This document shows positions 10,142 through 32,417 of a DNA stretch of 64,000 nt, piece by piece. The DNA comes from a virus. Where the stretch lies: positions 122,106 through 186,105 of the IMG/VR virus record IMGVR_UViG_3300032267_001142. One strand, written 5' to 3'. The position numbers were made by a program, and so were the translations under genes. Under the pieces are notes generated by a model. The model saw nothing but the letters and a program-made list of their open reading frames with translations. It did no database searches and had not been told where the DNA came from. Position 1 is the stretch's first letter; the number at the start of each line of letters is the position of its first letter.

Positions 10142-10146
10142 TACAT

Positions 10147-10221
10147 GGCCTATTAGTGTAAAAGTAAGCACGACTGATTCTCAATCAGTAAACCTCGGAG
10201 CGTTACCGAGATAGGCTACCA
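10147..10221 (+). tRNA. tRNA-Glu(CUC)
   Basis: Acceptor GGCCTAT/ATAGGCT, A73, CCA. Anticodon arm ACTGA-TTCTCAA-TCAGT. D-loop AAAAGTAA. T-arm CTCGG-AGCGTTA-CCGAG. Confidence 0.85.
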
Positions 10222-10226
10222 ATTTT

Positions 10227-10302
10227 GTTCCTATGGTGAAATCAGAAATCATAGAGGCTTGCGAAGCCCCTGTTCCAGATGCGAGTTCTGGTAGGAACAC
10301 CA
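10227..10302 (+). tRNA. tRNA-Arg(GCG), copy 1
   Basis: Acceptor GTTCCTA/TAGGAAC, A73, CCA. Anticodon loop TTGCGAA. D-loop AATCAGAAA with A18 G19. T-arm CCAGA-TGCGAGT-TCTGG. Confidence 0.8.
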
Positions 10303-10307
10303 TTTAT

Positions 10308-10399
10308 GGCTAGTTAAGTGGTCGAGTGGCCACCTTCAATTGCTAATTGAAAGGCACCCTTAAACAAGGTGTAGCGGGCGGGACGTTAGCTAGCCGCCA
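10308..10399 (+). tRNA. tRNA-Ser(GCU)
   Basis: Acceptor GGCTAGT/GCTAGCC, G73, CCA. Anticodon arm TTCAA-TTGCTAA-TTGAA. Long variable arm (GGCACCCTTAAACAAGGTGT) shared with other Ser tRNAs here. D-loop GAGT. T-loop GGCGGGA. Confidence 0.85.
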
Positions 10400-10406
10400 T
10401 ATAATA

Positions 10407-10595
10407 ATGAACATCCTGAAATGGTTTAGGCGCTGTCAGTGCTGTAAAAAGCGAGGAGCGACCAGACGCCACCAAATGACTCAATACGCGGACGAAGAGC
10501 GCAACTTTGCGACGCTCTGCCCGCCTTGCCAAATCGGAAACGATAAGTATTGGGAGGATATGTGGGCCGAGTATCGTTCAAGTCAAGGTATCTGA
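10407..10595 (+). CDS. Small conserved phage zinc-finger-like protein
   Basis: 62 residues: MNILKWFRRCQCCKKRGAT, then YADEERNFATLCPPCQIGND, then YWEDMWAEYRSSQG. The two CxxC pairs form a zinc knuckle, and the C-terminal YW..MWAEYYSSQG-type end recurs in phage small proteins. It starts eight bases after tRNA-Ser, so it is likely transcribed with the tRNAs. Confidence 0.65.
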   Translation: MNILKWFRRCQCCKKRGATRRHQMTQYADEERNFATLCPPCQIGNDKYWEDMWAEYRSSQGI

Positions 10596-10666
10596 TTTTG
10601 CAGTGCAGAAAACCCGTTAATGGAGTCACGAGATGTTCGTCGGCAATAGAACTCCTTACTGCTTAT

Positions 10667-10742
10667 GTTCGCCTAGCTCAATAGATAGAGCACTACTTTG
10701 CGAAGGTAGAGGTTCCCGATGCAAGTTCGGGGGTGAACTCCA
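10667..10742 (+). tRNA. tRNA-Arg(GCG), copy 2
   Basis: Acceptor GTTCGCC/GGTGAAC, U73, CCA. Anticodon arm CTACT-TTGCGAA-GGTAG. D-arm GCTC-AATAGATA-GAGC with A18 G19. T-arm CCCGA-TGCAAGT-TCGGG. Confidence 0.8.
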
Positions 10743-10748
10743 TTTAAT

Positions 10749-10822
10749 CGGAGGTTGATGAAACAGTATCATATTTGGCCTACACCCAAAATTCGCAAGG
10801 GCAGCACTTGCACTTCCGACCA
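10749..10822 (+). tRNA. tRNA-Val(UAC), C33
   Basis: Acceptor CGGAGGT/ACTTCCG, A73, CCA. Anticodon arm TTTGG-CCTACAC-CCAAA places C at 33. D-loop AACAGTA. T-arm GCAAG-GGCAGCA-CTTGC. Confidence 0.75.
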
Positions 10823-10875
10823 ATTAGAGCCTTGACGCCTCTTGAAAAAAGCGTAATCTCAGGGCTGTTCTTTAC

Positions 10876-10950
10876 GCCGCCGTGGCAGAATAGATATGCG
10901 CCAGTCTCCTAAACTGGTTTATGAAAGTGCAACTCTTTCCGGCAGCACCA
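10876..10950 (+). tRNA. tRNA-Arg(CCU)
   Basis: Acceptor GCCGCCG/CGGCAGC with one C-A mismatch, A73, CCA. Anticodon arm CCAGT-CTCCTAA-ACTGG. D-loop GAATAGATA. T-arm GAAAG-TGCAACT-CTTTC. Confidence 0.8.
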
Positions 10951-11093
10951 GTTCTCTTGAAACAAGCGCCGAGAAATTGCAAAGGCACAAAGTCTTGGAG
11001 TAGGGAGAAAATTTTTCGAGTAGTAGTTTATCCTAGAAAAACAGCCCTTCACAAGAGGGCGAAGGTGAGGCATAGGAACTCCCCTCTCGACCA
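10951..11093 (+). other. Non-coding stretch ending in CTCTCG-A-CCA, possible decayed tRNA
   Basis: The 3' end looks like a tRNA terminus and a GCCCT/AGGGC hairpin is present, but no set of D, anticodon and T arms with a matching acceptor can be drawn. Confidence 0.3.
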
Positions 11094-11097
11094 TTTT

Positions 11098-11172
11098 GCC
11101 GCATAAACATAGTCAGCGATGTGCTAGTTTCGTAAACTAGATAGTAGGGTGCGTCTCCCTAATGTGGCTCCA
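11098..11172 (+). tRNA. tRNA-Thr(CGU)
   Basis: Acceptor GCCGCAT/ATGTGGC, U73, CCA. Anticodon arm CTAGT-TTCGTAA-ACTAG. D-loop AGTCAGCG with A18 G19. T-arm TAGGG-TGCGTCT-CCCTA. Confidence 0.85.
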
Positions 11173-11211
11173 TTTTGCAAAAAGAAAACTGATGCACCTA
11201 TGGTCAAAGGG

Positions 11212-11278
11212 GTGTTGTGAAAATCAGGGTGCGGCTTGCCGTGCGAAACACAGGGGTAAAAGTCCCAACTAGACCATC
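11212..11278 (+). other. tRNA-sized non-coding element, no intact tRNA
   Basis: ATGGTC and GACCAT close the stretch, and GGGG-TAAAAGT-CCC resembles a T-arm, but there is no clear anticodon arm. Probably a degenerate tRNA. Confidence 0.25.
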
Positions 11279-11283
11279 ATTTT

Positions 11284-11358
11284 GTCCCATTAGTGAAACA
11301 GATATAACAATGCGTTTCGACCGCATAATTCCGAGTGCAAATCTTGGGTGGGACACCA
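11284..11358 (+). tRNA. tRNA-Arg(UCG)
   Basis: Acceptor GTCCCAT/GTGGGAC, A73, CCA. Anticodon arm ATGCG-TTTCGAC-CGCAT. D-loop AACAGATA with A18 G19. T-arm CCGAG-TGCAAAT-CTTGG. Confidence 0.85.
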
Positions 11359-11487
11359 ATCGCTACGACCATTGCAACCAAACCCAAGTCTCACCGAGGG
11401 CGCAGCCAAGCAGGTATGGTGCAAATCTCCCTGTGCTGTGAGAGACTTGGGAAGGGTGCAAGTGCAACTCCCGCCTTGGCGTCCAAT
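11359..11487 (+). other. Structured element with 10-bp hairpin, ending TCCA
   Basis: CCCAAGTCTC (11383-11392) pairs perfectly with GAGACTTGGG (11442-11451) around an inner GC-rich domain containing TGCAAAT. Outer CGCTACG/CTTGGCG and a terminal T-CCA look tRNA-like. It might be a tRNA with an insertion in its anticodon region, or another RNA. Not resolved. Confidence 0.35.
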
Positions 11488-11495
11488 TTTTAGAT

Positions 11496-11570
11496 GGTTA
11501 CGTGAGTGTGATAGCCGCACTGAATTTTGTGAAAATTCCAGAATGGGAGCGAAACCCATACGTGACCCCA
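11496..11570 (+). tRNA. tRNA-His(GUG) with G-1 and C73
   Basis: Acceptor GTTACGT/ACGTGAC preceded by G-1 and followed by C73-CCA, the bacterial His identity pair. Anticodon arm GAATT-TTGTGAA-AATTC. D-loop TGATAGCCG with A18 G19. T-arm ATGGG-AGCGAAA-CCCAT. Confidence 0.85.
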
Positions 11571-11635
11571 TCTTTTCTTTCTCAAATTGGAGTTTAATCT
11601 TGCCGCCGCTTGAAAAGTGGGTATGATTATCGAAT

Positions 11636-11710
11636 CAGGTGATGATGTAGCACTCAGCATTCGATTCTGTGAAAATCGCCGGATACGTGGAACTCGTATG
11701 CACCTGACCA
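11636..11710 (+). tRNA. tRNA with GUG anticodon (His-type), C19-G56 elbow
   Basis: Acceptor CAGGTGA/GCACCTG with an A-G mismatch at 7-66, A73, CCA. No G-1/C73, so charging as His is uncertain. Anticodon arm CGATT-CTGTGAA-AATCG. D-loop AGCACTCA gives A18 C19 and T-loop TGGAACT gives G55 G56: 19-56 is C-G. Confidence 0.75.
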
Positions 11711-11714
11711 CTTT

Positions 11715-12269
11715 ATGAGCAACTTTAAGTTAGATAGACGGTATTGTTTTAACTGCCAGACTGATACAGAACAAATCGTGAGAGACTCGACGCACGAGCG
11801 GGACGCCTCAAATGATTATTACATCTGTCGGATGTGCCACCATCATTATTCAGGTCGCTCAGGCGAGTATGAAAAACCTTCGGCTTTCGATTTAGAATAC
11901 GAAGAGTCTCTCGCAAAGCAACTATCAACACGACCACAATACGAAAAACTCTTCAGAAGAGAGTTTAGAGCGTTAGACTCAGACTCTCAGCAATTAGCCG
12001 CAGTCACTCTTATCGACACATACAGCCATCGTGTCAACGTCCTCGCGAAGGCTTTTGAGAGTCTAGCCCTCCAGATGATTAAGTCTGGAAGCATTTCGCG
12101 TTTTCGTCGTATCGTAGGACGAGATTTCGTAATTAAACCCCTGCAAAGTTCCCCCTTTTTGAGCGAAAGAGAGCGAGCGTTAAAATCGCAACTGGCCACC
12201 CCGCCAACAGAACGGCAAGTGGAGACGAAAAGCGCATTTTTACGCTCGCTGAACGAAGAGAGTTGTTGA
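11715..12269 (+). CDS. Hypothetical protein with N-terminal zinc ribbon
   Basis: 184 residues. CFNCQTDTE near residues 11-19 and CRMCHHHYSG near 38-47 form a two-CxxC zinc ribbon; the rest is helical with no recognised family. It starts four bases after a tRNA CCA, so it is probably read from a tRNA transcript. The downstream tRNA promoter overlaps its stop. Confidence 0.6.
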   Translation: MSNFKLDRRYCFNCQTDTEQIVRDSTHERDASNDYYICRMCHHHYSGRSGEYEKPSAFDLEYEESLAKQLSTRPQYEKLFRREFRALDSDSQQLAAVTLIDTYSHRVNVLAKAFESLALQMIKSGSISRFRRIVGRDFVIKPLQSSPFLSERERALKSQLATPPTERQVETKSAFLRSLNEESC

Positions 12270-12294
12270 CTTTGGGTCAAAAAAGCCATATTCT
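12266..12294 (+). promoter_or_regulatory. Promoter of tRNA-Arg(UCU)
   Basis: TTGACT, 17-bp spacer, TATTCT, start about eight bases before the tRNA. Overlaps the upstream stop codon. Confidence 0.7.
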
Positions 12295-12302
12295 TAATTC
12301 AC

Positions 12303-12373
12303 GTCCTCGGTAATAGATACTTCTGGAGCTTCTAACTCTGAGAAACGCGGCGCGATACCGTGCGGGGACACCA
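12303..12373 (+). tRNA. tRNA-Arg(UCU)
   Basis: Acceptor GTCCTCG/CGGGGAC, A73, CCA. Anticodon arm TGGAG-CTTCTAA-CTCTG. Small D-arm GTA-ATAGA-TAC with A18 G19. T-arm CGCGG-CGCGATA-CCGTG. Confidence 0.8.
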
Positions 12374-12380
12374 CTCTAAA

Positions 12381-12782
12381 ATGAAAATCAGAACCGAAAA
12401 AGTAATCGACTGCAACGATTGGGACAAGCTGGTCAAAGAGACTTACGGCAAGCCTTACACGCTTCAACAACAGAGAGGCTGTCACGACCGAGGCTTTTTT
12501 CGCTTCACAGTTCCAGAGGAAACTGACGAAGATGACTACGCGCACGACGAGATACCGGAAGTCGTCAACGACGAAAAGATGTGCGTCAAATTCGATAAGT
12601 GGTTAGCGAGAGACCCGAAGCAGGAACTCAATGCCGAAGACGGCTCTTGCCGAAAAGAGGACTGGGCCATTGATTTGTGGTGGTCGCGCAATTTCTATCC
12701 AGCGTTTCAGGTTGTTGCTAATGATTTGCACAAACGCGGCAAAATTGAGGCGGGAGACTATACCATAGATATTAACTGGTAA
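12381..12782 (+). CDS. Hypothetical phage protein
   Basis: 133 residues from the ATG eight bases after tRNA-Arg. Acidic middle (EETDEDDYAHDE) and a C-terminal WxxDLWWSRNFYPAFQVV segment. It resembles small uncharacterised phage proteins but carries no catalytic motif. Its stop (TAATG) touches the next start. Confidence 0.6.
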   Translation: MKIRTEKVIDCNDWDKLVKETYGKPYTLQQQRGCHDRGFFRFTVPEETDEDDYAHDEIPEVVNDEKMCVKFDKWLARDPKQELNAEDGSCRKEDWAIDLWWSRNFYPAFQVVANDLHKRGKIEAGDYTIDINW

Positions 12783-12973
12783 TGACAGCCGAAGAAGAGT
12801 CCTCAATTAGAAACGCTATATCTCTGCTGCGGCGCTCATTGTGTTGTGACTACAATAACGAGACTTACATTAAAGTTTCGGAGGGTTACTTGGACTACGT
12901 TTTCAGACAGCTCAGAGCGGGACAAAAAGTTCAGCCCCACAAAGAGGCGGGTTTTGCGCTGGCAGGATTTTAG
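12782..12973 (+). CDS. Small hypothetical protein (63 aa)
   Basis: Overlaps the previous stop by one base (TAATG), so likely coupled. Helical, with YLDYVFRQLRAGQ; no family recognised. Confidence 0.5.
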   Translation: MTAEEESSIRNAISLLRRSLCCDYNNETYIKVSEGYLDYVFRQLRAGQKVQPHKEAGFALAGF

Positions 12974-12996
12974 TAATTACGGTGTTGATAGCGCGT

Positions 12997-13491
12997 CTAA
13001 TTACCATGAATAGACACAACACTACGGCACAATTTTAAGAAGTCGTCTAACGCCAAATCATTTTTAGCAACGTTTGCGTTTTTGGTAGTCAAACCCATAT
13101 TAGACAAGTCACAAGCGCCGCCTTTACTTCTTGGTACTTTATGGTCTAGTGAGTAGCTATCCGCTTTTAATAAGTCAATCTTTTCGCCTGTTAGGTAGCA
13201 GGTCGGATTTTCGCCAATAAACGCTAACGCATCCTTGAAGGAGATTGCAGGTTCCGCCTGCCCTTTCAATTTTCCGCCCATACTGAAAAATTTACCATAA
13301 AATCTTTGCAGCTTCCGTCTTAAAGGATGGGCTTTAGAATCGTACTCTTTGGCTTTCCTTAACGCGTAATCTCTAGCAGTTGGGCTAAGATAATATCGAA
13401 CACAAGCAATAGAAACCGATAGATGTTTAGCGATTTTTCTGTAACCCCAAGTTGGGTTTTGTAGTTTACAGTCAAGGACTTTTTGTTTCAT
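12997..13491 (-). CDS. HNH endonuclease with N-terminal helix-turn-helix
   Basis: 164 residues. MKQKVLDCKLQNPTWGYRKI opens an HTH-like DNA-binding segment; CYLTGEKIDLLKADSYSLDH and SKGGACDLSNMGLTTKNANVAK form the HNH core. A paralogue with the same start lies at 14314-14886, also on the minus strand. Both sit among tRNA genes, indicating duplication or repeated insertion of one mobile nuclease type. Confidence 0.8.
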   Translation of the reverse strand: MKQKVLDCKLQNPTWGYRKIAKHLSVSIACVRYYLSPTARDYALRKAKEYDSKAHPLRRKLQRFYGKFFSMGGKLKGQAEPAISFKDALAFIGENPTCYLTGEKIDLLKADSYSLDHKVPRSKGGACDLSNMGLTTKNANVAKNDLALDDFLKLCRSVVSIHGN

Positions 13492-13537
13492 GTGATTGTT
13501 TACACGTTGCTAAGAATTTTGGGAAATTTAGATACAT

Positions 13538-13629
13538 GGTTCTGTAATGTAAAGTAGCATCGCACGTCTTATAAACGTGGCGCACTTGATTGGTGCCGGG
13601 TCTCAGTGCAAGTCTGAGCAGAACTACCA
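13538..13629 (+). tRNA. tRNA-Ile(UAU) with long variable arm
   Basis: Acceptor GGTTCTG/CAGAACT, A73, CCA. Anticodon arm CACGT-CTTATAA-ACGTG gives UAU, which would read AUA without lysidine. The variable arm is long (GCAC...GTGC hairpin), unusual for Ile. D-loop AAAGTA. T-arm CTCAG-TGCAAGT-CTGAG. Confidence 0.75.
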
Positions 13630-13632
13630 TTT

Positions 13633-13708
13633 CGCTCCTTACTCCAATGCAGAGAGCGTGGTCTCAGAAACCGCGAAAGTGTCGTTGCAAGTACGACAGG
13701 AGCGACCA
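13633..13708 (+). tRNA. tRNA-Leu(CAG) with short variable loop
   Basis: Acceptor CGCTCCT/AGGAGCG, A73, CCA. Anticodon arm GTGGT-CTCAGAA-ACCGC. Variable loop about six bases. D-loop CAATGCAGA. T-arm GTCGT-TGCAAGT-ACGAC. Confidence 0.8.
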
Positions 13709-13718
13709 GAATTTAGAT

Positions 13719-13800
13719 TCCTAGTAAGGAAACGAGTGTAACCGGCGGTCTGTTAAACCGTGAAATAACGAGCTTCGTGCGACTCGAAGACTAGGAGCCA
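13719..13800 (+). tRNA. tRNA-Asn(GUU), copy 2
   Basis: Acceptor TCCTAGT/ACTAGGA, G73, CCA. Anticodon arm GCGGT-CTGTTAA-ACCGT. Variable region about 11 bases. D-loop contains GAGT (A18 G19). T-arm CTTCG-TGCGACT-CGAAG. Confidence 0.8.
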
Positions 13801-13806
13801 TTTCAA

Positions 13807-13827
13807 CCCTATTGAGAACCAATAGGG
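13807..13827 (+). terminator. Perfect hairpin after tRNA-Asn
   Basis: CCCTATTG pairs with CAATAGGG around AGAAC, directly after the tRNA. No T-run follows, so it may be a processing signal or a weak terminator. A second hairpin (CCCTGA/TCAGGG) follows within 40 bases. Confidence 0.4.
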
Positions 13828-13910
13828 GACGGCACCCTGACAGCAACTTAATCAGGGCGCAGTAAGCGGAAGTTTAAGTTCTAACCGCGTAGCCGTTGAA
13901 AATTTTCTTC

Positions 13911-13938
13911 TTGCGTTTAGCGAGAAAGACTGTAAGAT
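13911..13938 (+). promoter_or_regulatory. Promoter of tRNA-Trp
   Basis: TTGCGT, 16-bp spacer, TAAGAT; start falls just before the tRNA 5' end at 13948. Confidence 0.6.
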
Positions 13939-13947
13939 ATAACACAT

Positions 13948-14031
13948 ACACCCTCTCCCAAGAAGGATTGGAACTCGTCTCCAAAACGAGAGTCATCAGA
14001 CTAAGCCGAGCGTTACGGCAAGGGTGTGCCA
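13948..14031 (+). tRNA. tRNA-Trp(CCA) with extended variable region
   Basis: Acceptor ACACCCT/AGGGTGT, G73 (Trp-type), CCA. Anticodon arm CTCGT-CTCCAAA-ACGAG. Variable region carries AGTC/GACT hairpin, unusual for Trp. D-loop GAAGGA with A18 G19. T-loop AGCGTTA. Confidence 0.8.
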
Positions 14032-14035
14032 CTTT

Positions 14036-14109
14036 GGGCTGTTCGACTAAAATTAAGTCACGAGTCTCTTAAACTCAGGAACACGGAGAATTACCGTGAC
14101 GGCTCACCA
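14036..14109 (+). tRNA. tRNA-Lys(CUU), copy 2, U19-A56 elbow
   Basis: Acceptor GGGCTGT/ACGGCTC, A73, CCA. Anticodon loop CTCTTAA. D-arm GACT-AAAATTA-AGTC gives A18 U19, and T-arm CACGG-AGAATTA-CCGTG gives G55 A56: the 19-56 pair is U-A. Confidence 0.85.
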
Positions 14110-14184
14110 GCGGGATAGACAAGTAGTTAAGTCAGGGGTTTCATAAGCCTCCATGCATGGGTGCAAATCCCATTTCCGCAACCA
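14110..14184 (+). tRNA. Initiator-like tRNA-fMet(CAU), copy 2
   Basis: As at 6659, GCGGGA pairs with TTCCGC, A72 is unpaired, A73-CCA follows, and the only possible base 1 is the last A of the preceding tRNA's CCA. Anticodon arm GGGGT-TTCATAA-GCCTC. D-loop with A18 G19. T-arm ATGGG-TGCAAAT-CCCAT. Confidence 0.75.
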
Positions 14185-14194
14185 TTGTAAATAT

Positions 14195-14269
14195 GGGCCA
14201 TTGATGAAATAGTATCATGCAATTCTGGCAGAATTGATTTTCGGGTGCGAATCCCGAATGTGTCCACCA
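14195..14269 (+). tRNA. tRNA-Ala(GGC), bulged acceptor
   Basis: Acceptor GGGCCAT/ATG(T)GTCC keeps G3-U70 and has one bulged U on the 3' strand, as does tRNA-Ala(CGC). A73, CCA. Anticodon arm CAATT-CTGGCAG-AATTG. D-loop AATAGTA. T-arm TCGGG-TGCGAAT-CCCGA. Confidence 0.8.
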
Positions 14270-14271
14270 TT

Positions 14272-14363
14272 GGAAGCTAGGCGAATATAAGTTGGTCGCG
14301 CTAGTCTTGAAAACTAGTTCACTGTAACAGGTGAGGTCGGGGCAGTACCGACAGCTTCCGCCA
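14272..14363 (+). tRNA. tRNA-Ser(UGA)
   Basis: Acceptor GGAAGCT/AGCTTCC, G73, CCA. Anticodon arm CTAGT-CTTGAAA-ACTAG. Long variable arm. D-loop with AAGT. T-arm GTCGG-GGCAGTA-CCGAC. Its 3' part overlaps, antisense, the end of the HNH gene below. Confidence 0.85.
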
Positions 14364-14886
14364 TTTTGGATACTGAGTATCCACGGTGTATCAAAACTAA
14401 CTTACAGATTTCCTCGAACTCTTCTAATGTGGAGTCTGATTTTGCGCGATTTACCGCTTTTAGCGTCAAGCCGCAATTTGAAAGAGAATTATCTCCTCCT
14501 TTCGCAATAGGTTGAATATGGTCAAGCTCATAGGTTTTCGGCTCTAGTAGATTTATCGGTAGTCCCGTAAGATAGCAGATAGGCTGAGACAAGAGCTTGT
14601 CTTTAAGTTCTTGAGCAGAGAACAGAGAAGCTGCACGATTTCGTCCGCCCGCTAATCCGGCCTTAGTGCATCGCCGCCCCGCTATACATTGGAAATTATC
14701 CTTTTTGCGTTTCAAAATTCCGTTGAAATTCGCCCGATGCTTTCTCGTTCGTGCGAAGCTTCGTTTTTTACCTTCAGGATTCAAATAGTAAGCGACAGTA
14801 CTATAAGCGCAACCTAAAAATTTCGCTATGTTTTTATACCCCCATGTTGGGTTGGAGGTTTTACAATCAAGGATTTTTTGTTTCAT
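14314..14886 (-). CDS. HNH endonuclease, paralogue of 12997-13491
   Basis: The start at 14886 gives MKQKILDCKTSNPTWGYKNI, matching the paralogue's N-terminus. CYLTGLPINLLEPKTYELDH and AKGGDNSLSNCGLTLKAVNRA form the HNH core. The last 16 or so codons run antisense through tRNA-Ser(UGA), so the gene has either invaded or extended into the tRNA. 190 residues. Confidence 0.8.
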   Translation of the reverse strand: MKQKILDCKTSNPTWGYKNIAKFLGCAYSTVAYYLNPEGKKRSFARTRKHRANFNGILKRKKDNFQCIAGRRCTKAGLAGGRNRAASLFSAQELKDKLLSQPICYLTGLPINLLEPKTYELDHIQPIAKGGDNSLSNCGLTLKAVNRAKSDSTLEEFEEICKLVLIHRGYSVSKMAEAVGTAPTSPVTVN

Positions 14887-14938
14887 ACATGATTTTACAC
14901 GTCGCGTCACATTTTTTCTAGTATTTGTATCGCTGCTT

Positions 14939-15027
14939 AGCAGATTACCCGAATAAGATTCGGCCTCGCCTCGAAAGCGAAGGGCACCCCAAAAGGGTGT
15001 GGGGCGCGCTACCTCAATCTGCTGCCA
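14939..15027 (+). tRNA. tRNA-Ser(CGA)
   Basis: Acceptor AGCAGAT/ATCTGCT, G73, CCA. Anticodon loop CTCGAAA. Variable arm GGCACCCC...GGGTGT. D-loop ATAAGAT. T-arm TGGGG-CGCGCTA-CCTCA. Confidence 0.85.
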
Positions 15028-15030
15028 TTT

Positions 15031-15121
15031 GGTAAGTAAATCATCAAAGTGATGACCTAAGCTGGAAACTTAGTGGCACCCTTAAAAAAGGTGTGGGATG
15101 CGAGTTCTCTGCTTACCGCCA
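15031..15121 (+). tRNA. tRNA-Ser(GGA)
   Basis: Acceptor GGTAAGT/GCTTACC, G73, CCA. Anticodon arm CTAAG-CTGGAAA-CTTAG. Variable arm nearly identical to Ser(GCU). D-loop contains AAAGT. T-loop TGCGAGT. Confidence 0.8.
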
Positions 15122-15122
15122 C

Positions 15123-15145
15123 GCAGCTCAAAATGAGCTGCTTTT
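15123..15145 (+). terminator. Intrinsic terminator after tRNA-Ser(GGA)
   Basis: GCAGCTCA pairs perfectly with TGAGCTGC around AAA and is followed by TTTT. The next tRNA begins at once. Confidence 0.7.
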
Positions 15146-15220
15146 AGCCCTGTGGTGTAATAGAAACATATCTGGTTCTGACCCAGCAGACTCAACGTGC
15201 AAGTCGTTGCGGGGCTTCCA
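15146..15220 (+). tRNA. tRNA-Gln(CUG)
   Basis: Acceptor AGCCCTG/CGGGGCT, U73, CCA. Anticodon loop TTCTGAC. D-arm GTGT-AATAGAA-ACAT. T-arm CAACG-TGCAAGT-CGTTG. Confidence 0.8.
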
Positions 15221-15223
15221 ATT

Positions 15224-15430
15224 ATGCCTAGTATCAAAGAAAAGAAAGTCGCGTTCCTACTCGAAAGAGGCGCGGCGGTCGCCTTAGACCAGTTCAATAG
15301 GACTGTGTTGAAGCAAGGTGGCGCGTTTTGTCTCGTTGACGACTATGGCCGCGTCACTTGGTATACGAATAAGACTCTGGAAGAAATGCGAGTCATAAGA
15401 AACGATGCGAGAGTCGAGATTGAATTATGA
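15224..15430 (+). CDS. Small hypothetical protein (68 aa)
   Basis: The ATG lies three bases after tRNA-Gln. MPSIKEKKVAFLLERGAAVA opens a helical N-terminus; then LVDDYGRVTWYTNKTLEEM. Overlaps the next start by four bases (ATGA). No family recognised. Confidence 0.55.
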   Translation: MPSIKEKKVAFLLERGAAVALDQFNRTVLKQGGAFCLVDDYGRVTWYTNKTLEEMRVIRNDARVEIEL

Positions 15431-15684
15431 AAAGCATGCTCCGCAGTGTCATAAAGGCGAACAAGCAGATAGAAGAGGCTAGAAGCATAATTGCCAAGGT
15501 TCAAGCGAAATGCTCACACCCTGACGCGACGCTCGATAAAGTTTACAAAGCGGACACTGGCAACTGGTGCGAGCAGGACAACTCGTATTGGGCAGAACTG
15601 ACGTGTAACCGATGCGGCAAATTTTGGTACGCAGACAGCGTAAAGAATCCAGAAGACTACCGCAGGGGCACAGTAAAAGTTTGA
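15427..15684 (+). CDS. Small zinc-binding-type protein
   Basis: 85 residues. CSHPDATLDKVYKAD and LTCNRCGKFW suggest a CxxH/CxxC zinc site after an N-terminal helix. Coupled to the preceding gene by ATGA. Function unknown. Confidence 0.55.
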   Translation: MKSMLRSVIKANKQIEEARSIIAKVQAKCSHPDATLDKVYKADTGNWCEQDNSYWAELTCNRCGKFWYADSVKNPEDYRRGTVKV

Positions 15685-15708
15685 CAGCTCAGAAAGTTTC
15701 GATATCAT
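15681..15708 (+). promoter_or_regulatory. Leaderless-type promoter for 15715 gene
   Basis: TTGACA, 16-bp spacer, TATCAT, then six bases to ATG. No Shine-Dalgarno. Confidence 0.75.
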
Positions 15709-15714
15709 AAAAGC

Positions 15715-16131
15715 ATGAAACCAATCTCCCGTAAGTCCTTCTTTGCTATTTTTGTCGCCCCGCTTTTGGCTCCGTTTTTACCAAAAGCCGTTGCAAAAAT
15801 CGTTAATCCAACTAGCGAGCCAACCGCTTCAAAGGTTTTCCTTACAGCGACAGAGGTAACGACAAACAAGAGAATCGGAAGCGTGAGCTTTTACAGTAAG
15901 TATCTTGCTAACGGACGAACGGAAGTCGCCGATAGAGCGCTGGCTCTCTTAGTTAGGCGGGCCGTCGATAGTGGCGCGTCGCACTATGTCGTCACATGGT
16001 CAGATGCGAACGCTCAGCGGGCATATTTCCATGAAAAATTTAACATACCGCTGAAAAACCTAGACTCTATGTTAGGAAAGTCCGAGCACTGGCTGAGCCG
16101 AGCTGAATTCGAGACACAATATCCTCTTTGA
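15715..16131 (+). CDS. Exported hypothetical protein
   Basis: 138 residues. The N-terminus has a basic start (MKPISRKSF) and a hydrophobic run to about residue 28, consistent with a signal peptide or anchor. The mature part has no recognised domain. Own promoter directly upstream. Confidence 0.55.
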   Translation: MKPISRKSFFAIFVAPLLAPFLPKAVAKIVNPTSEPTASKVFLTATEVTTNKRIGSVSFYSKYLANGRTEVADRALALLVRRAVDSGASHYVVTWSDANAQRAYFHEKFNIPLKNLDSMLGKSEHWLSRAEFETQYPL

Positions 16132-16210
16132 TGCTCTTTATACCTTATTCCAACGATTTTTTACTTCAGTCTCGATGCCGCCTCGGCGGAGGATGTAAAT
16201 ATGGGAAAAT

Positions 16211-16262
16211 AATCGAGTTGGATGCTCGTTTTGAAAACGAGATAGGAATTATAGTAATTCGA
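16211..16262 (+). pseudogene. tRNA-Ser(UGA)-like remnant
   Basis: CTCGT-TTTGAAA-ACGAG is an ideal anticodon arm, but no acceptor, T-arm or CCA can be assigned in the flanking AT-rich bases. Confidence 0.3.
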
Positions 16263-16273
16263 TAACGAATTAT

Positions 16274-16350
16274 GTCCTGTGAGGGAGCAAGTTGAACCCC
16301 ACAATCTGCAAAATTGTTGTTGCACGGCGCGATACCGTGACAGGACTCCA
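16274..16350 (+). tRNA. tRNA-Cys(GCA), copy 2
   Basis: Acceptor GTCCTGT/ACAGGAC, U73, CCA. Anticodon arm ACAAT-CTGCAAA-ATTGT. D-loop AGCAAGTTGAA. T-arm CACGG-CGCGATA-CCGTG. Confidence 0.85.
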
Positions 16351-16352
16351 AT

Positions 16353-16697
16353 ATGAAACCCGAAGCGCAAAGAAAAGCTATCATTAAGTTCTGTGGCTGG
16401 AAAGACATCTCCGATAGCTGCCGCTATCGTTTAATGACTTTAGCAGTGATTCGAGACGAGCGGATGTTTAACGTCCACGACCCTTTGACGGATTTGAACG
16501 CGATGCGCGAGGCGGAGAGGATGTTGTCAGTAAAGCAAGCGAAACTTTATGTCGAGCTTTTGGGTGAGATAGTTCTGGACAACGGGGGCTGTTACTTCAA
16601 TAAGAACAAATATATGGCATTCGTGGCTCTAAATTCCACGGCTGCGCAGCGCGCCGAAGCTTTTCTAAAAGCTCTTGGACTTTGGACAGAAGATTAA
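16353..16697 (+). CDS. Hypothetical phage protein (KPEAQRKAI..CGW type)
   Basis: 114 residues. Begins two bases after tRNA-Cys with MKPEAQRKAIIKFCGWKDIS, then YRLMTLAVIRDERMFNVHDPLTDL-type text seen in uncharacterised phage proteins that often handle query-plate-like fixed positions. No catalytic motif. Six bases later a strong promoter drives the large RNA. Confidence 0.5.
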   Translation: MKPEAQRKAIIKFCGWKDISDSCRYRLMTLAVIRDERMFNVHDPLTDLNAMREAERMLSVKQAKLYVELLGEIVLDNGGCYFNKNKYMAFVALNSTAAQRAEAFLKALGLWTED

Positions 16698-16702
16698 AAG
16701 TG

Positions 16703-16730
16703 TTGACGTTTTAGCAAAAGAGCCTAGAAT
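16703..16730 (+). promoter_or_regulatory. Promoter of the large structured RNA
   Basis: TTGACG, 16-bp spacer, TAGAAT; predicted start about 16737. Confidence 0.7.
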
Positions 16731-16736
16731 GTAACC

Positions 16737-17715
16737 ATGCGATTGAGACAGGAAACTCTCTCGAAAGCAACAAAAGGGGGCATGACCTCTTAGATAACGC
16801 GCCGCAAGGCGAAGAAAGGCTGAAAGCCCTACATTTTCAGCCGCCGTTTACGGTCACTTATGCAACCGTAGTTCCTCGGTTTACAATGCCAAACATTGTG
16901 GACTAGACTATCGAGGTTCCGGCGTCCCGAAAGGGGCGTTTCCAGACGTGAAACTCTGGTAAACGGGTTCAAACTTAAATAGTCGAGAACGAAGCGTAGT
17001 TGTTTATGTCGAGCCTAGCAAGCAAGACGCGAACAGCAGCCCAAACGGGAGTGGACTCGTGAGAGTTTATGACCGAGAAAGCCGTCGAAATCGCCGCTGG
17101 CGAAAGATATCATGTTGTGTTGTATTGGGTGGTCGAAAGGTCATCTAGCGACTGGACAGACGCAACATAATAGGGATAAGTATTTGGAACTTACAAGAAA
17201 AAGTTCTGTCCACGTTAGCGCGATAAGCAGATTAAGTCGCTGGCCTTCGGGCAACAGCGAGCGTTAAACCTCTCAAGGGAATAACGTTTGGCGTCAGAGT
17301 AAGATTGGTTGGCCTTTAGCGGGGTTAGCTGAGACGAAAAAACGCTGAGTAGCGCGACGGTTAATGGATATGCTACCATTCAAAAGCATCTGTGAGAAAT
17401 AGCGGTCGAAAGGTCGCTGGATAACAAGATAACACATACGTCTTGTAAAGGTTCTCGAATCGAAGCATAGTCTCAGCTTTGATAATTTGGTCAGCGGGCG
17501 AGCTATTTGAACGCAGTCGTTTGCAAAACTTCTATAGCAAGGTGAGATTCCTTGGCTGACCTCCATCTCATCAGTAGCGTATTACGCTAGTTTGGCTGCG
17601 GCCCATTGGGTCGCGAATTAAAGAGTTCGGGTTGCTCTGAGCTTAGTAGATTGGCAGGACGGAGGTAATAATATCCGCGCTTGTTAGTTGCTGGACGGGG
17701 AGTTAGCCCCTTGAG
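16737..17715 (+). ncRNA. Very large ornate non-coding RNA (GOLLD/ROOL-type candidate)
   Basis: About 980 bases without any plausible ORF, driven by its own promoter and full of short GC stems capped by GAAA, GCAA or UUCG-like loops (CCCGAAAGGGG, GCCGCAAGGC, GGTCGAAAGGTC twice, GCCTTCGGGC). A tRNA-like domain is embedded at 17489-17565 and further hairpins follow. Length, ornateness, phage location beside tRNAs and the embedded tRNA are known features of GOLLD RNAs, and ROOL RNAs share several of them. I cannot align it to either family here. The 3' end is approximate. Confidence 0.65.
17489..17565 (+). tRNA. tRNA-Cys(GCA)-like domain within large RNA, U19-A56 elbow
   Basis: Acceptor GGTCAGC/GCTGACC, U73, CCA. 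T-arm CAAGG-TGAGATT-CCTTG gives G55 A56, and D-arm GCG-AGCTATTTGAA-CGC gives A18 U19, an independent U19-A56 case. The anticodon arm around TTGCAAA is poorly paired, so it may not be a working Cys tRNA. Confidence 0.6.
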
Positions 17716-17719
17716 AAAT

Positions 17720-17794
17720 GGGTCATTGGTGAAATAGAATCACGACGCACTCGCAATGCGTAGTCGAGGGTGCGACTCCCTCATGTATCCACCA
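17720..17794 (+). tRNA. tRNA-Ala(CGC), bulged acceptor
   Basis: Acceptor GGGTCAT/ATG(T)ATCC with G3-U70 and the same bulged U as tRNA-Ala(GGC). A73, CCA. Anticodon arm ACGCA-CTCGCAA-TGCGT. D-arm GTGA-AATAGAA-TCAC. T-arm GAGGG-TGCGACT-CCCTC. Confidence 0.8.
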
Positions 17795-17828
17795 CAATTT
17801 TTACGTCGGAAACACAAAGAAAACATAA

Positions 17829-17903
17829 ATGCCACTCAATATCTTAACTCTTTCGGTAGTGATGTCCGCGTTACTAATCTTAACTAGCCGCCGTATTCGA
17901 TGA
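17829..17903 (+). CDS. Tiny hydrophobic peptide (24 aa)
   Basis: MPLNILTLSVVMSALLILTS plus RRIR: one membrane helix with a basic end. Its TGA overlaps the next gene's ATG by four bases (ATGA), which supports translation. Confidence 0.5.
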   Translation: MPLNILTLSVVMSALLILTSRRIR

Positions 17904-18400
17904 AATTTTTCAAGAAAGTCAAAACCATTACCTCCAAAGAGGGCGAGCTGCACTTCGAGCGCTGGGCGATTTTCGAGTCAAAGTGGCTCTCGTGGTATAT
18001 CCACAGAATACACAAGGCAGACAGGGACCATTTACATTCCTATCCTTGGAATTTTCTGTCACTAATCTTGAAGGGCTGTTATCTCGAAGAGAACGCTTAC
18101 GATACAGCAGATGGAAGTTTCTGCACAGGCTTAAAGATAAAGAGCCCGTTCACAGTCACTTACTGTAACAAATCTAAATTTCATAAAATCAACACCATCA
18201 TCTCTGGTCCGGTTTACACGACGATGTTTGTGTGGGGCGACACCCAGAAGTGGTTTTATCGGGTAGGAAAGAAGAGAATTCCTTTTGAGGAATATCGCGA
18301 AATCAAAGCCGCAGCCAAAGAGGCGGGGCTTTCTATCGAGGAGTATATCTTCAAATATGAGATTGGGCTCTTGACTCCGTCGCAAAAACGAGTAGACTAG
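17900..18400 (+). CDS. Cupin-like phage protein
   Basis: 166 residues. WYIHRIHKADRDHLHSYPWNF near residues 32-52 resembles a cupin metal-binding strand pair (HxH with DH..PW), a type seen in uncharacterised phage proteins; FTVTYCNKSKFHKI near 85-98 may give a further His. Enzyme activity cannot be assigned. Coupled to the peptide upstream. Confidence 0.5.
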   Translation: MKFFKKVKTITSKEGELHFERWAIFESKWLSWYIHRIHKADRDHLHSYPWNFLSLILKGCYLEENAYDTADGSFCTGLKIKSPFTVTYCNKSKFHKINTIISGPVYTTMFVWGDTQKWFYRVGKKRIPFEEYREIKAAAKEAGLSIEEYIFKYEIGLLTPSQKRVD

Positions 18401-18412
18401 TAAAAATCAAAC

Positions 18413-18799
18413 ATGAAATCATTCCTAAAACTTGCAATCATCGCCGTCGCGTCACTATCAATCGCTGGGTGCCAGCCAGAATCAGACGTAGCCGCCTATA
18501 ATGTTTCGCAGGCCGCGCATAATTTTGAAGTCAACAGACGAGTCGTGTTCTACAACGGCATCACAGGAGATTACATACTCACCATCGAGGGTCTTCTATC
18601 TGTGACGCCAGAAGATAAGCGCCTCTCGGTTATCGTAAAGACTGGGCCGAATCAGTATAAGAAGCACTATCTTGGTGTTTCTGATAACGTGACTTGGTTC
18701 TGCGAACAAATCGAATCCGTTCCAGCGTCGCCTTTTCATTATCGTGTCATCTTCCGTCCTACCACGATTATCCCAGATGTCGAAGTTAGGACGCGCTAA
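18413..18799 (+). CDS. Beta-sandwich phage lipoprotein
   Basis: 128 residues. A signal peptide ends in the lipobox SIAGC (Cys 20). The mature part AYNVSQAAHNFEVNRRVVFY NGIT and KHYLGVSDNV is the pattern of a known family of small phage lipoproteins with a beta-sandwich. Likely membrane-anchored in the infected host; role unknown. Confidence 0.7.
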   Translation: MKSFLKLAIIAVASLSIAGCQPESDVAAYNVSQAAHNFEVNRRVVFYNGITGDYILTIEGLLSVTPEDKRLSVIVKTGPNQYKKHYLGVSDNVTWFCEQIESVPASPFHYRVIFRPTTIIPDVEVRTR

Positions 18800-18817
18800 G
18801 AGAAGTTTAGTCAAAAT

Positions 18818-18901
18818 GTCGGTGTGAGTTAATGGCGAATAGCACAGCCTCTCCGCTTAAAACGGATACTTTTGCAGGTGCAAGTCCTGTCACCGATACC
18901 A
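18818..18901 (+). tRNA. tRNA-Leu(UAA)
   Basis: Acceptor GTCGGTG/CACCGAT, A73, CCA. Anticodon loop CTTAAAA. About nine extra bases lie between acceptor and a GGC/GCC D-stem; loop contains TAGC (A18 G19). Short variable loop. T-loop TGCAAGT. Confidence 0.65.
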
Positions 18902-18908
18902 AATTACA

Positions 18909-19133
18909 ATGAATGGAACATATCTTGACGCTCTCAATGTCACACTACACTGGTTTGGAGGCTCAATCAATCGAATGGATATTTTCGTGGCCTCTATCGA
19001 AGGACGCGTTATGAGAGATTTGGTTGATTCGGGACATTTGAGAAAAAGATTTTTTGGATGGGAAATCACTAGTAAAGGGCGCGAAGCTCTCGAAGAAGCT
19101 GACATCCATTGTTTCGAGGACACGCGTTCATAA
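18909..19133 (+). CDS. Small winged-helix-like hypothetical protein
   Basis: 74 residues. RVMRDLVDSGHLRKRFFGWEIT then SKGREALEE resembles the recognition helix and wing of a small winged-helix protein. It begins seven bases after tRNA-Leu. Fold call is tentative. Confidence 0.45.
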   Translation: MNGTYLDALNVTLHWFGGSINRMDIFVASIEGRVMRDLVDSGHLRKRFFGWEITSKGREALEEADIHCFEDTRS

Positions 19134-19139
19134 TTTTAT

Positions 19140-19213
19140 CGCTAATTCGTTCAAAAGCAGGACTCGCGTTTCATAAGCGCAGGACGCTGGAGCGTTACCA
19201 GCATTAGCGACCA
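19140..19213 (+). tRNA. tRNA-Met or Ile2 (CAU), fully paired acceptor
   Basis: Acceptor CGCTAAT/ATTAGCG fully paired, A73, CCA. Anticodon loop TTCATAA. D-loop AAAAGCA. T-arm GCTGG-AGCGTTA-CCAGC. A paired 1-72 argues for an elongator Met or lysidine-type Ile. Confidence 0.8.
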
Positions 19214-19304
19214 TGTTAGTAAAACCCCGTCTCCCTCGGTTAAGGGGAGGTTGCCAGCGATGGCGATAATATCTGGGGCCGTAAAGTCGGAATCCGAACC
19301 TCCA

Positions 19305-19384
19305 CGCGGTCGGGCATAGGAGAAGTTTCTTCTGGTCTGTCTCATAAGCAGATAAATTACGTGCGATTCGTAACGCCGCAACCA
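19305..19384 (+). tRNA. Initiator-like tRNA-fMet(CAU), copy 3, C1-A72
   Basis: 5' CGCGGTC and 3' CGCCGCA-A-CCA: C1 faces A72 as in E. coli initiators and G2-C71 to G5-C68 pair. Anticodon arm TCTGT-CTCATAA-GCAGA. T-arm TTACG-TGCGATT-CGTAA. The D region is enlarged and folds oddly. Confidence 0.65.
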
Positions 19385-19431
19385 ACAGACTGTGCAAGCC
19401 TATACACAAAACTCAAATCGCGCAGTCATTT

Positions 19432-19505
19432 CGAGACATAGTTCAATAGTAGAATTTTTGATTGACATTCAAAAGACGAAGGAGCGTAACCTTCTGTTTC
19501 GACCA
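19432..19505 (+). tRNA. tRNA-Val(GAC)
   Basis: Acceptor CGAGACA/TGTTTCG, A73, CCA. Anticodon arm TTTGA-TTGACAT-TCAAA. D-loop AATAGTA. T-arm GAAGG-AGCGTAA-CCTTC. Confidence 0.85.
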
Positions 19506-19514
19506 AATTTTAAC

Positions 19515-19588
19515 GCCTCGTTAATTTAATAGTAAACCGCCTTTTTGGTAAAAAGGGTTCGCTGGAGCGTAACCAGCACGAGGCTCCA
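19515..19588 (+). tRNA. tRNA-Thr(GGU)
   Basis: Acceptor GCCTCGT/ACGAGGC, U73, CCA. Anticodon arm CCTTT-TTGGTAA-AAAGG. D-loop AATAGTA. T-arm GCTGG-AGCGTAA-CCAGC. Last tRNA of the cluster. Confidence 0.85.
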
Positions 19589-24177: not shown

Positions 24178-24993
24178 ATGAAGACTACTTGGATTATCGA
24201 AAACCTAACACGAGAAGAAAGTTACGTTGAGTTAGCGAAAGCCGTCGAAGAAGCTGGGCTTGAGCTAATTAGGCTAGATGGGGACTTTTCAAAATCTGAG
24301 TTTTTGCAAACGCTAGGAAACGAGCCGAAACCTACGGTCGTTTGCGCTAGCATACAGATGAACAGTCTCATTAGGGACTGCCTGCCTAAGTGGGCGACGC
24401 CGCCGTATTGCACGCCTGCGAATTATCTATGCTCGCGGTATTACCCTATTTTTGACAAATATTTATTCAATGACAAATACATAATGATGCCCGCGAGAAT
24501 GGCTAGGAAAATGTATTGGGACATTTATGGTCGCTTCGCTAAGGAAGCTCAGGTTTTTTGCCGCCCCAATTCAGGAGAGAAGCCTTTCAAAGCGGGGCTG
24601 GTTGATTTGCAAGAATTTGAGCGGTTCTTGGATGGATATACAGAAGAGGGCCAACTTTTACTGTTTTCGTCGCCTAAAAACATCCTCGGGGAATGGCGCT
24701 TCGTAGTCTCGAAAGACGCAGACATCATCGCTCAATCGAGTTACAAATATCAAGGCTTGCTTACAAAAGTCCCGTCCGCGCCAAAAGCGGCAACAGATTT
24801 TGTGAATGAGATATTAGCGGTCGGGTATTATCCAGATGATGTGTTTTGTGTGGACGTTGCCCTTGATGGGGACTCTAAACCTTGGCTGATGGAATTGACG
24901 AGCTTTTCTTCCGCAGGACTTTATGCTTGCGATAAAAACAGAATCGTAGAAGGAGTGAGTAAGATAGCGAGCAAAAGCTCGTCTCCTCTATAA
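24178..24993 (+). CDS. ATP-grasp domain protein (DUF4343-like)
   Basis: 271 residues. GEWRFVVSKDADIIAQSSYKY near 177-197 and VFCVDVALDGDSKPWLMELTSF near 221-242 fit the ATP-grasp core (E for Mg and a C-terminal E.NsFssaG). It probably forms an amide or thioester-type bond using ATP. Lies between a phosphatase and a phosphoesterase gene. Confidence 0.65.
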   Translation: MKTTWIIENLTREESYVELAKAVEEAGLELIRLDGDFSKSEFLQTLGNEPKPTVVCASIQMNSLIRDCLPKWATPPYCTPANYLCSRYYPIFDKYLFNDKYIMMPARMARKMYWDIYGRFAKEAQVFCRPNSGEKPFKAGLVDLQEFERFLDGYTEEGQLLLFSSPKNILGEWRFVVSKDADIIAQSSYKYQGLLTKVPSAPKAATDFVNEILAVGYYPDDVFCVDVALDGDSKPWLMELTSFSSAGLYACDKNRIVEGVSKIASKSSSPL

Positions 24994-26881: not shown

Positions 26882-26909
26882 TTGACCTTTTTCTAAAAGG
26901 GGATACAGT
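26882..26909 (+). promoter_or_regulatory. Promoter of RNase P RNA
   Basis: TTGACC, 16-bp spacer, TACAGT; start about 26916, at the base of helix P1. Confidence 0.75.
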
Positions 26910-26916: not shown

Positions 26917-27210
26917 AACGCAATCGCTAAGCGACTCTACGCGCAATGCCGTAACCAGTGCGGTAAAGTGAGGAAAGTTCTTGGCAGCCGAGAGAACGAC
27001 AGGAGAGCGCCCGCTAGCAATAGCGGCGTTCGTTAATACTGCAAGTTAGCTGCAACCCGAACAGTCCGATGGTAGCTCTCCCAAATGAGGACGGGTCGGG
27101 GCGGTAGGATTCACACCCTACGGGCGCTGTAAAGCGTTCAGTCAAATGTAGAGTTGAAGTCCCGCAAGGGACCAGACCAGAACCGAGGCTATAGCTAGCG
27201 ATTGCGTATC
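26917..27210 (+). ncRNA. rnpB: RNase P RNA (phage-encoded)
   Basis: The ends form a perfect 12-bp P1 (ACGCAATCGCTA at 26918 with TAGCGATTGCGT ending at 27207). GAGGAAAGTTC (CR-I) and CCAGAACCGAGGCTATAG (CR-V) pair as P4 with the conserved bulged U. AACAGTCCGATGG and CAAATGAGG match the bacterial type A segment AACAGUCCG...CAAAUAGG. The part of the specificity domain that normally carries the T-loop-binding GGUGAAA/GGUAA motifs is short and divergent. RNase P makes tRNA 5' ends. No RNase P protein gene is visible, so it would use host RnpA. Confidence 0.85.
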
Positions 27211-29001: not shown

Positions 29002-29853
29002 ATGGGCTGCTTAAACTCTACAGGACAATTCACTCACTGGTTCGGAAACATTCACCTATCGGGACCGTGCAATCGCTCTTGCTATTTTTGTATCGGGCAG
29101 CACATGATGGCGCTTGACCCGCTCAATAATTTAGATGAATGGCCTTTAAGGAACTTCGATAAATTCATAGTGCTTTGTGGAGAGCGCTGCGTTTCCGAGG
29201 TTAATTTGACAGGCAGCAATACTGACCCCTTGATGTATAAACATCACGCTAGTTTGACCGCCGCGCTAAAGGAACAGATTCCTAACTGTAAACTTGGGCT
29301 GCGCACGAACGGCGCTATGGCGGAAAGTCACCCTGAGATATGGAGTCTTTACGATAAGGCGAGTATCTCCATTACTTCGTTTGACGCTGACATTTACAAA
29401 GCGACTATGGGGTGCGGCGCTCCGCCGAACATTTCTGCCCTCTTGAAGTTAAAACCAGAAATGCCAGTCAAGGTGAACGTCGTCCTCTGTCCAGAGGTAA
29501 TGGGCGAGGATATCAAAAGGACGCTGGACATTCTTACGGACGCTGGAATAAAAACGGTGAACCTTCGGGAACCTTACGGCCAACCGCATCTAGGAAGTCC
29601 GTTGAAAAATCCCACTGGCAGTCGGTTGGGTATGCCTCGCTACGATTGGAAAGGAATGGACGTTACTTATTGGGACGTGCATTACGTGGAAGTTGAAAGT
29701 GTCAACCTATACGCTAACGGAATCGTTAGTGAGACCTACCCTATCACTAAGGGTCACGCTCCTAACGGAGAGGTCATTGCGCAACAGAACTGGACGCGTA
29801 GCGGCAGGCAGCGCCCTCAGTGGTTGAAGTATGATAAAGAGTTGACTGCCTAA
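29002..29853 (+). CDS. Radical SAM protein
   Basis: 283 residues. CNRSCYFCIG near residues 26-35 is the CxxxCxxC motif binding a 4Fe-4S cluster, following a beta strand (GNIHLSGP). NLTGSNTDPL and the repeated strand-helix pattern fit the TIM-barrel. Substrate unknown. No maturation partner adjacent. The start follows a TAGATT-like -10. Confidence 0.7.
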   Translation: MGCLNSTGQFTHWFGNIHLSGPCNRSCYFCIGQHMMALDPLNNLDEWPLRNFDKFIVLCGERCVSEVNLTGSNTDPLMYKHHASLTAALKEQIPNCKLGLRTNGAMAESHPEIWSLYDKASISITSFDADIYKATMGCGAPPNISALLKLKPEMPVKVNVVLCPEVMGEDIKRTLDILTDAGIKTVNLREPYGQPHLGSPLKNPTGSRLGMPRYDWKGMDVTYWDVHYVEVESVNLYANGIVSETYPITKGHAPNGEVIAQQNWTRSGRQRPQWLKYDKELTA

Positions 29854-32003: not shown

Positions 32004-32417
32004 GGGGTAGCAAGGATTCGACAAATAAGACGAGTCTAAACCCGCAAGCCGCTTATGGTAGTTAGACTGCGTCAAATCTCTACCAAGCATAAACGTCTCA
32101 AACGTAATTGCAAAAGTGAAGACCGCTTGGAGCGCCTTCCGTAATAACCTTACGGTTGCCTTCGGGAGCTTTTCGCCCGTCGTGGCCTAATCACGGCCAC
32201 CCGTATCATTTCCGATTTCTGCTAGGACTTAGATGCGACATTAGCAGGATTTACGAAATAAGTTCGCATATTCTTATTCGTCACATACGATATACGCTGT
32301 GGTCAGTTAGGTTTTGTCATTTTAGACAACTGGCCGAAAGCAAAAAAGAAACTAAGCTTGTAGAAGGTCTGATAAAAATTGTTTGGACAGGGGCTTCGAT
32401 GCCCCTCTACTCCACCA
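32004..32417 (+). ncRNA. ssrA: tmRNA (phage-encoded)
   Basis: The 5' GGGGTAGCAAGGATTCGAC and 3' GGGGCTTCGATGCCCC...CTACTCC-A-CCA are the tRNA-like domain of tmRNA, with acceptor GGGGTAG/CTACTCC holding the Ala identity pair G3-U70 and a canonical TTCGA T-loop. A resume codon GCA at 32110 opens a 26-codon tag beginning AKVKTAWSAF and ending SPVVA, whose TAA (32188) sits in the loop of a GTGGCC/GGCCAC hairpin. An alternative frame ending in tandem TAATAA at 32142 would give KSEDRLERLP. tmRNA rescues stalled ribosomes. Confidence 0.9.

Follow-up and report, generated by a model that had tools for sequence, protein, structure and literature searches.

Few ribozymes are as conserved as RNase P RNA, which has been treated as a cellular molecule. 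The nearest known reductions of it are the archaeal T-type (cited in PMC7191817) and the diverged RNAs of CPR bacteria (PMC8172020). In the former, found in Pyrobaculum and its kin, the RNA is reduced and the S domain largely lost; it belongs to an archaeal lineage, whereas the phage RNA described below keeps P6 and has an S domain made of a single hairpin with a conserved loop of its own. The CPR RNAs lack P13, P14 and other helices and are missed by Rfam thresholds, but they are cellular, their changes vary between genomes and some are without the CCA-binding UGG, where the phage RNA keeps its GGU (PMC8172020). No earlier report of a phage or viral RNase P RNA was found in the full text of 5.4 million open papers.

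The RNA in question runs from 26918 to 27207 on the plus strand of a 64,000-nt stretch of viral DNA (the window; bases 122106-186105 of a 186-kb IMG/VR record), where it lies between short phage genes; the record encodes the tape measure, terminase, DnaB helicase, ribonucleotide reductase and rIIA of a tailed phage. As far as sequence can tell, the phage encodes an RNase P RNA here, identified by homology, architecture and covariation. The Rfam RNase P models give no match to it even at E=10, because its sequence is too divergent for them: neither the type A model (RF00010, whose gathering cut-off is likewise not reached) nor the type B model (RF00011) matches at E<=10, the archaeal model (RF00373) gives no match, and an nhmmer profile from eight bacterial A-type RNAs also misses it. 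The type A search had been proposed as a check in an earlier note on this DNA, for which an empty result, taken alone, was to refute the identification. A covariance model built from 21 related phage RNAs with the window RNA left out (R1) matches it with 31.1 bits (E=1.4e-6), the next best match in the 64 kb having E=1.9, and finds it as the only match in the whole 186-kb record. The R1 alignment is good over the 5' two thirds and is broken in the 3' part by an extra hairpin, P18 and P19. R1 also matches bacterial RNase P RNAs (E. coli 39 bits, L010 43 bits) and thus links the window RNA, the phage class and bacteria. Furthermore the fold has a z-score of -5.3, with 0/200 shuffles equally stable, and with the R1 match this bears out the identity that the earlier note had proposed.

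A hand-drawn fold contains P1, P2, P3, CR-I, P4 with its bulged U, P5, P6, P15-L15-P16-P17, P18, P19 and CR-V, with the core helices all in the correct order and topology; the MFE fold conflicts with the pairing of P6 and P4. The RNA shares with bacterial type A (RF00010) the order and topology of P1-P2-P3-P4-P5-P6-P15-P16-P17-P18, CR-I, CR-V, the GGU of L15 and a GNRA loop on P18, but differs in having lost recognisable P8, P9, P13, P14 and canonical CR-II/CR-III and in the distance from CR-I to J5/15, which is 82 nt as against 167-206 nt in the bacteria measured (61-117 nt in the phage class, a range bounded by the search). P1 joins the two ends of the RNA in 12 bp (26918-26929 with 27196-27207) and P2 (26933-26940 with 27148-27155; 8 bp) is pseudoknotted with P4; a 203-kb phage with a tRNA array and a tmRNA, G007, is nearest to the window in architecture and has a P1 that is also of 12 bp with almost wholly different sequence, and a P2 with altered pairs. 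After the P3 hairpin (26943-26969) comes CR-I, GAGGAAAG (26970-26977), which makes up J3/4 and the start of P4 and whose GAGGAA is invariant in 21/21 members of the class alignment, themselves retrieved by this motif. The 5' strand of P4 (26976-26984) pairs in 8 bp with 27183-27190, leaving a bulge that is either U26978 or U26979, and the 3' strand lies in the CR-V-like CAGAACCGAGGCUAU (27178-27192), which aligns to the class-invariant CAGAA. A perfect P1, and CR-I and CR-V forming P4 with its bulged U, are as the earlier note had described them, and GAGGAAAG and CAGAACC are correctly spaced relative to P4, P1 and P2, as looked for at the level of the clan.

P5 pairs CAGC (26985-26988) with GCUG (27049-27052) and its equivalent is 100% paired in the class. 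P6 pairs GAGAG (26990-26994) with CUCUC (27076-27080) in L17, a pseudoknot from the P5/P7 joint to L17 that is a type A trait, type B RNase P RNA having no P6. Between these strands and J5/15 the specificity domain is reduced to 54 nt (26995-27048) and a single hairpin arm with short stems AAC/GUU and CAG/CUG, an internal loop of GAG (27003-27005) facing CGUUAAUA (27031-27038) and a hairpin capped by GCAA (27006-27030); the P8, P9, P10-P14 and CR-II/CR-III of a type A S domain are not there, P8, P9, P13 and P14 being unrecognisable in the window and canonical CR-II/CR-III absent. That this domain is short and unlike the bacterial consensus had been correctly noted. J5/15 follows as CAA (27053-27055), part of a GCAA that is invariant in the class and belongs to the search motif, and which we take to be the equivalent of E. 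coli A248/A249. The P15-P16-P17 arm occupies 27056-27100 (P15 27056-59/27097-100, P16 27064-67/27089-92, P17 27070-72/27081-83), P15 and P16 covarying in the class, and its L15 GGU (27094-27096), the predicted contact of the CCA end, is invariant there; a placement of L15 at 27103 (GGUAGG) was rejected on the class alignment. The second sequence motif that the earlier note had relied on is present in so far as AACAG occurs, but its placement had to be corrected, AACAG being part of a J5/15-P15-P16 block conserved across the phage class, and the CAAAUGAGG of the window that resembles E. coli CAAAUAGGG lies elsewhere in the fold, in P17/J17-16.

The remainder of the RNA comprises an extra hairpin in J15/18 (27104-27119), present in G007 with other sequence, a P18 hairpin with a GUAA tetraloop (27121-27139), also present in G007, and J18/2, AGUCAAAU(G) (27140-27147), whose letters are identical in L115 and which has the AG...AAUG pattern seen both in the class and in bacterial RNase P. 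P19 (27159-27173, GUCCC-GCAA-GGGAC) is placed as in the RNase P RNA of Actinomycetota and some Alphaproteobacteria, and with the extra hairpin is absent from most class members. In other letters than the window, G007 retains the 12-bp P1, P2, P4, P6, P15, P16, the extra hairpin, a GUAA-capped P18 and a GCAA-capped P19; its outermost P4 pair is A-C as drawn and 7/8 P4 pairs form. Upstream, a sigma-70-like site (TTGACC-16-TACAGT, 26882-26909, plus strand; 9/12 in a consensus scan) ends nine bases before P1, with an expected start at about 26915. For the promoter that had been claimed for the RNA the score is weak evidence on its own, shuffled sequence giving 0.4 such sites in the same region, and the position just ahead of P1 adds weight.

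Relatives were sought from a pattern for tRNAs with odd T-loops, which gave 113 viral contig stretches. RF00010 run on the whole contigs of 19 of these found divergent RNAs inside tRNA arrays in L134, L135 and L136, and a fourth, L138, came from 50 more such contigs; a scan for CR-I and CR-V with P1/P4 pairing required added L115 and L059, the RNA of the latter being matched independently by the archaeal RNase P model (E=1e-10, below cut-off) and having tRNA genes 7-8 nt off on each side. A motif drawn from the first relatives, GAGGAA..GNGCAANNCMAA..ACAGAAYC, was scanned over all viral contigs and returned 45. About 30 of them combine an 8-bp P4 with tRNA genes at the locus; about 14 have a P4 of <=6 bp, and most of these lack tRNA genes altogether. 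L117 is a true member that owes its low P4 score only to a one-base gap. A final scan added L243/L249, L248 and L250. In all, motif and model searches of IMG/VR yielded close to 40 uncultured phage contigs with a miniature RNase P RNA, nearly all of them beside tRNA arrays, and the class as listed comprises G007, G005, G006, G009, L059, L134, L135, most of L198-L236, L243, L248 and L250. The Rfam RNase P cut-off is reached by none of 14 class loci, and by L134 with 112 bits. Very large phage contigs are also among the carriers, such as L243 (435,946 bp) and L214 (329,018 bp).

Candidates from loose patterns (L004, L005, L006, L015) were rejected as chance matches in coding sequence, as were the motif candidates L150 and L066, which lie away from tRNAs and are coding in appearance; a mismatch-tolerant version of the motif scan was abandoned as non-discriminating, its P4 test losing known positives. 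Deposited phage records in which blast detected a canonical rnpB seem to be bacterial contamination or host flank: MaAM05 (L017, MW495066.1, deposited as Microcystis phage MaAM05) looks like a bacterial chromosome, with flagellar, SecDF and lipid genes beside rnpB, and in MD-2021a host genes stand beside an integrase. Nearer to the window itself, blastn of its RNA and of one relative against deposited phages found nothing, a neighbouring protein and rIIA used as baits returned the same phage only and no near relative, and the strict pattern CR-I...ACAGUCCG...AGAAYC, across 2.9 million viral contigs, had an identical copy of the same phage as its sole other match; a second IMG/VR contig is 100% identical to the window phage over the 8.6 kb compared, with the same neighbours.

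An alignment of 21 class members (A1; the alignment A2 includes the window) gives RNAalifold enough to find P4, P5, P15 and P16 unaided, with compensatory changes on both sides in 13/19 pairs. Cells of the class helices are paired in 97.5% of cases, against 73% in shuffled and 26-38% in slid controls, and the covariation score is 0.597 against 0.147; for P4 alone 99.4% of cells are paired and both sides have changed in 5/8 pairs. P6 pairs better within than between 26 RNAs (mean 15.0 vs 10.8), a difference reached by 0/2000 permutations. Invariant in the class are the P4 bulged U, the L15 GGU, the J5/15 GCAA and the CR-V ACAGAA, the invariance being partly circular where GAGGAA, GNGCAA and ACAGAAYC had served as search criteria, which the helices, GGU and bulge had not. 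The bulged U, CR-V, J5/15 and L15 GGU are active-site elements of RNase P or its contact with CCA. In most members the S domain consists of a single hairpin arm bearing the asymmetric GAG/CGUUAAUA internal loop, and the window, whose match to R1 is significant, has that loop aligned in A2; MAFFT further aligns its GAG...CGUUAAUAC, GCAACCCGAACAG, GGACGGGU and AGUCAAAUG with the class. We read the window RNA as a divergent representative of this class, whose members are miniature RNase P RNAs of type-A-like form found in viruses.

The analysis establishes the homology of this RNA, its architecture and covariation, and its genomic link to tRNA arrays. In the window a plus-strand array of 33 candidate tRNA genes (4730-19588), nearly all of those in good register encoding NCCA, lies about 7.3 kb upstream of the RNA, which is not embedded in it, and a tmRNA (32004-32417, plus strand) 4.8 kb downstream; the G007 RNA is likewise downstream of its array. 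An RnpA gene was sought in the 186-kb record, which is possibly incomplete, and none was found; the host would accordingly supply the protein, unless the RNA works alone, and the earlier note's self-contained system of tRNA maturation is left unsupported.

From the sequence we infer catalysis, the use of host RnpA, the substrates, the role of the S-domain loop and the timing. With active site and CCA contact kept, catalysis is the simplest reading, and we consider it likely that this molecule serves as RNA subunit in a phage RNase P: an RNA with its own promoter and an A-type core that uses host RnpA and cuts the leaders of phage pre-tRNAs and pre-tmRNA. Transcribed from that promoter, the RNA would fold to the A-type core P1-P2-P3-P4-P5-P6-P15-P16-P17-P18, plus P19, and would bind host RnpA, most probably through conserved J3/4, P2/P3, J18/2 and CR-V surfaces; the complex would cut the 5' leaders of the predicted substrates, the tRNAs of the array and the tmRNA, L15 GGU pairing with the encoded CCA ends. 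Contact with the tRNA elbow, made in bacteria by the CR-II/CR-III module, would here fall to the single S-domain hairpin and its GAG/CGUUAAUA loop, and the benefit may be a supply of tRNA when the host has too little RNase P or its transcription has been shut down.

The tRNAs of this phage do have altered elbows, as had been claimed: of the 31 in good register, 28 have G at position 55, 2 have U and 1 has C, and G55 is coupled to A18 in place of G18-U55. At other viral loci, leaving out the tRNAs chosen by pattern, GG D-loops have 318 U55 and 6 G55 whereas AG D-loops have 132 G55 and 11 U55 (Fisher p ~1e-94, kinship uncorrected), a covariation which indicates that A18-G55 replaces G18-U55 as a unit; in three control phages the loops are canonical. 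The exchange is array-wide also in L034, L041, L084, L069, L114, L115 and L117, with single cases in many more, and we know of no report of an array-wide swap of this elbow pair. One of the few window tRNAs with U55 (9976-10049) has the anticodon CUA, of the amber suppressor type.

It was further proposed that the ribozyme had co-evolved with these tRNAs, the S domain being reshaped for the swapped 18-55 elbow in a maturation system apart from that of the host. Both traits do occur in the window phage, and the G55-rich G005, G006, G007 and G009 also carry the RNA; there is a looser, weak link between G55 arrays and its carriage, 5/11 G55-rich against 4/32 G55-poor arrays having it (p=0.03), in a small and unevenly searched sample with kinship uncorrected and the rich contigs searched more thoroughly. 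Yet most miniature RNAs accompany ordinary U55 tRNAs, so a changed elbow fails to account for the small domain: its GAG/CGUUAAUA loop also stands beside arrays that are wholly or almost wholly U55 in L198 (27/27), L232 (28/28) and L233 (34/36), and the same kind of small S domain beside canonical arrays in these and in L203, L224, L248 and others. On these comparative grounds the altered elbow was rejected as the cause of the small S domain. RNase P stacks on the G19-C56 pair of tRNA, and this pair is mostly kept in the altered-elbow tRNAs, which also tells against a co-evolved pair; we regard the idea as unlikely.

A very unlikely alternative to a working phage RNase P is that the RNA is a non-catalytic mimic, a decoy or inhibitor that sequesters host RnpA or other partners and slows host tRNA processing. 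A kept protein-binding surface, a reduced substrate domain and a record that encodes no RnpA would suit such a role, but a decoy would need none of the bulged U, CR-I, CR-V, J5/15 A's and GGU that are invariant in the class, and the link with phage tRNA arrays also speaks against it. The RNA might instead act on phage mRNA leaders, GOLLD or other structured RNAs; bacterial RNase P is known to cut several non-tRNA substrates (PMC11143913), and both GOLLD and tmRNA turn up repeatedly in the phages that carry the miniature RNA. The strong positional link to tRNA genes and the retention of L15 GGU, which fits encoded CCA ends, leave this reading only a slim chance. That a captured bacterial rnpB is here decaying to a pseudogene, as high divergence, domain loss and the lack of an Rfam match might suggest, is barely credible against a P1 that is long and perfect, core helices maintained through compensatory changes both between window and G007 and across 21 members, and a shared derived S-domain loop.

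With regard to the phages at large we lean, if only slightly, towards their having an RNase P RNA type of their own, a shrunken A-type with a minimal elbow-reading loop that serves as dedicated maturase of tRNA arrays, some of which, as in this phage, have the swapped 18-55 pair. If true, this recurrent viral form would offer structural and engineering studies a naturally minimal RNase P, small enough to reveal what the ribozyme can dispense with, and since the same phages vary the tRNA elbow, the parts of the S domain needed for elbow reading become testable. It would also add 5' maturation, an unrecognised step, to the provisions that phages make for their own tRNAs, in an RNA nearly invisible to current annotation.

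Finally, other elements were seen in these loci. Inside the window array a GOLLD RNA (17110-17479) scores 150.6 against an Rfam cut-off of 150, and L213 has GOLLD and a miniature RNase P RNA together; a raiA-like RNA (L114, 6012-6319; 54.9 bits, below cut-off) lies inside the G007 tRNA array. A non-tRNA segment at about 9683-9777 is 76% identical to Rhizobium phage RHph_I1_18, with a tRNA gene nearby in both. The tmRNA at 32004-32417 has an unusual tag, AKVKTAWSAFRNNLTVAFGSFSPVVA, and a canonical T-loop, UUCGAUG, unlike the window tRNAs. An R2K ATP-grasp protein and a small radical-SAM protein (24178-24993, 29002-29853) are encoded near the RNase P RNA, and a protein with WGR and PARP catalytic domains is encoded by the phage at 40218-41474.
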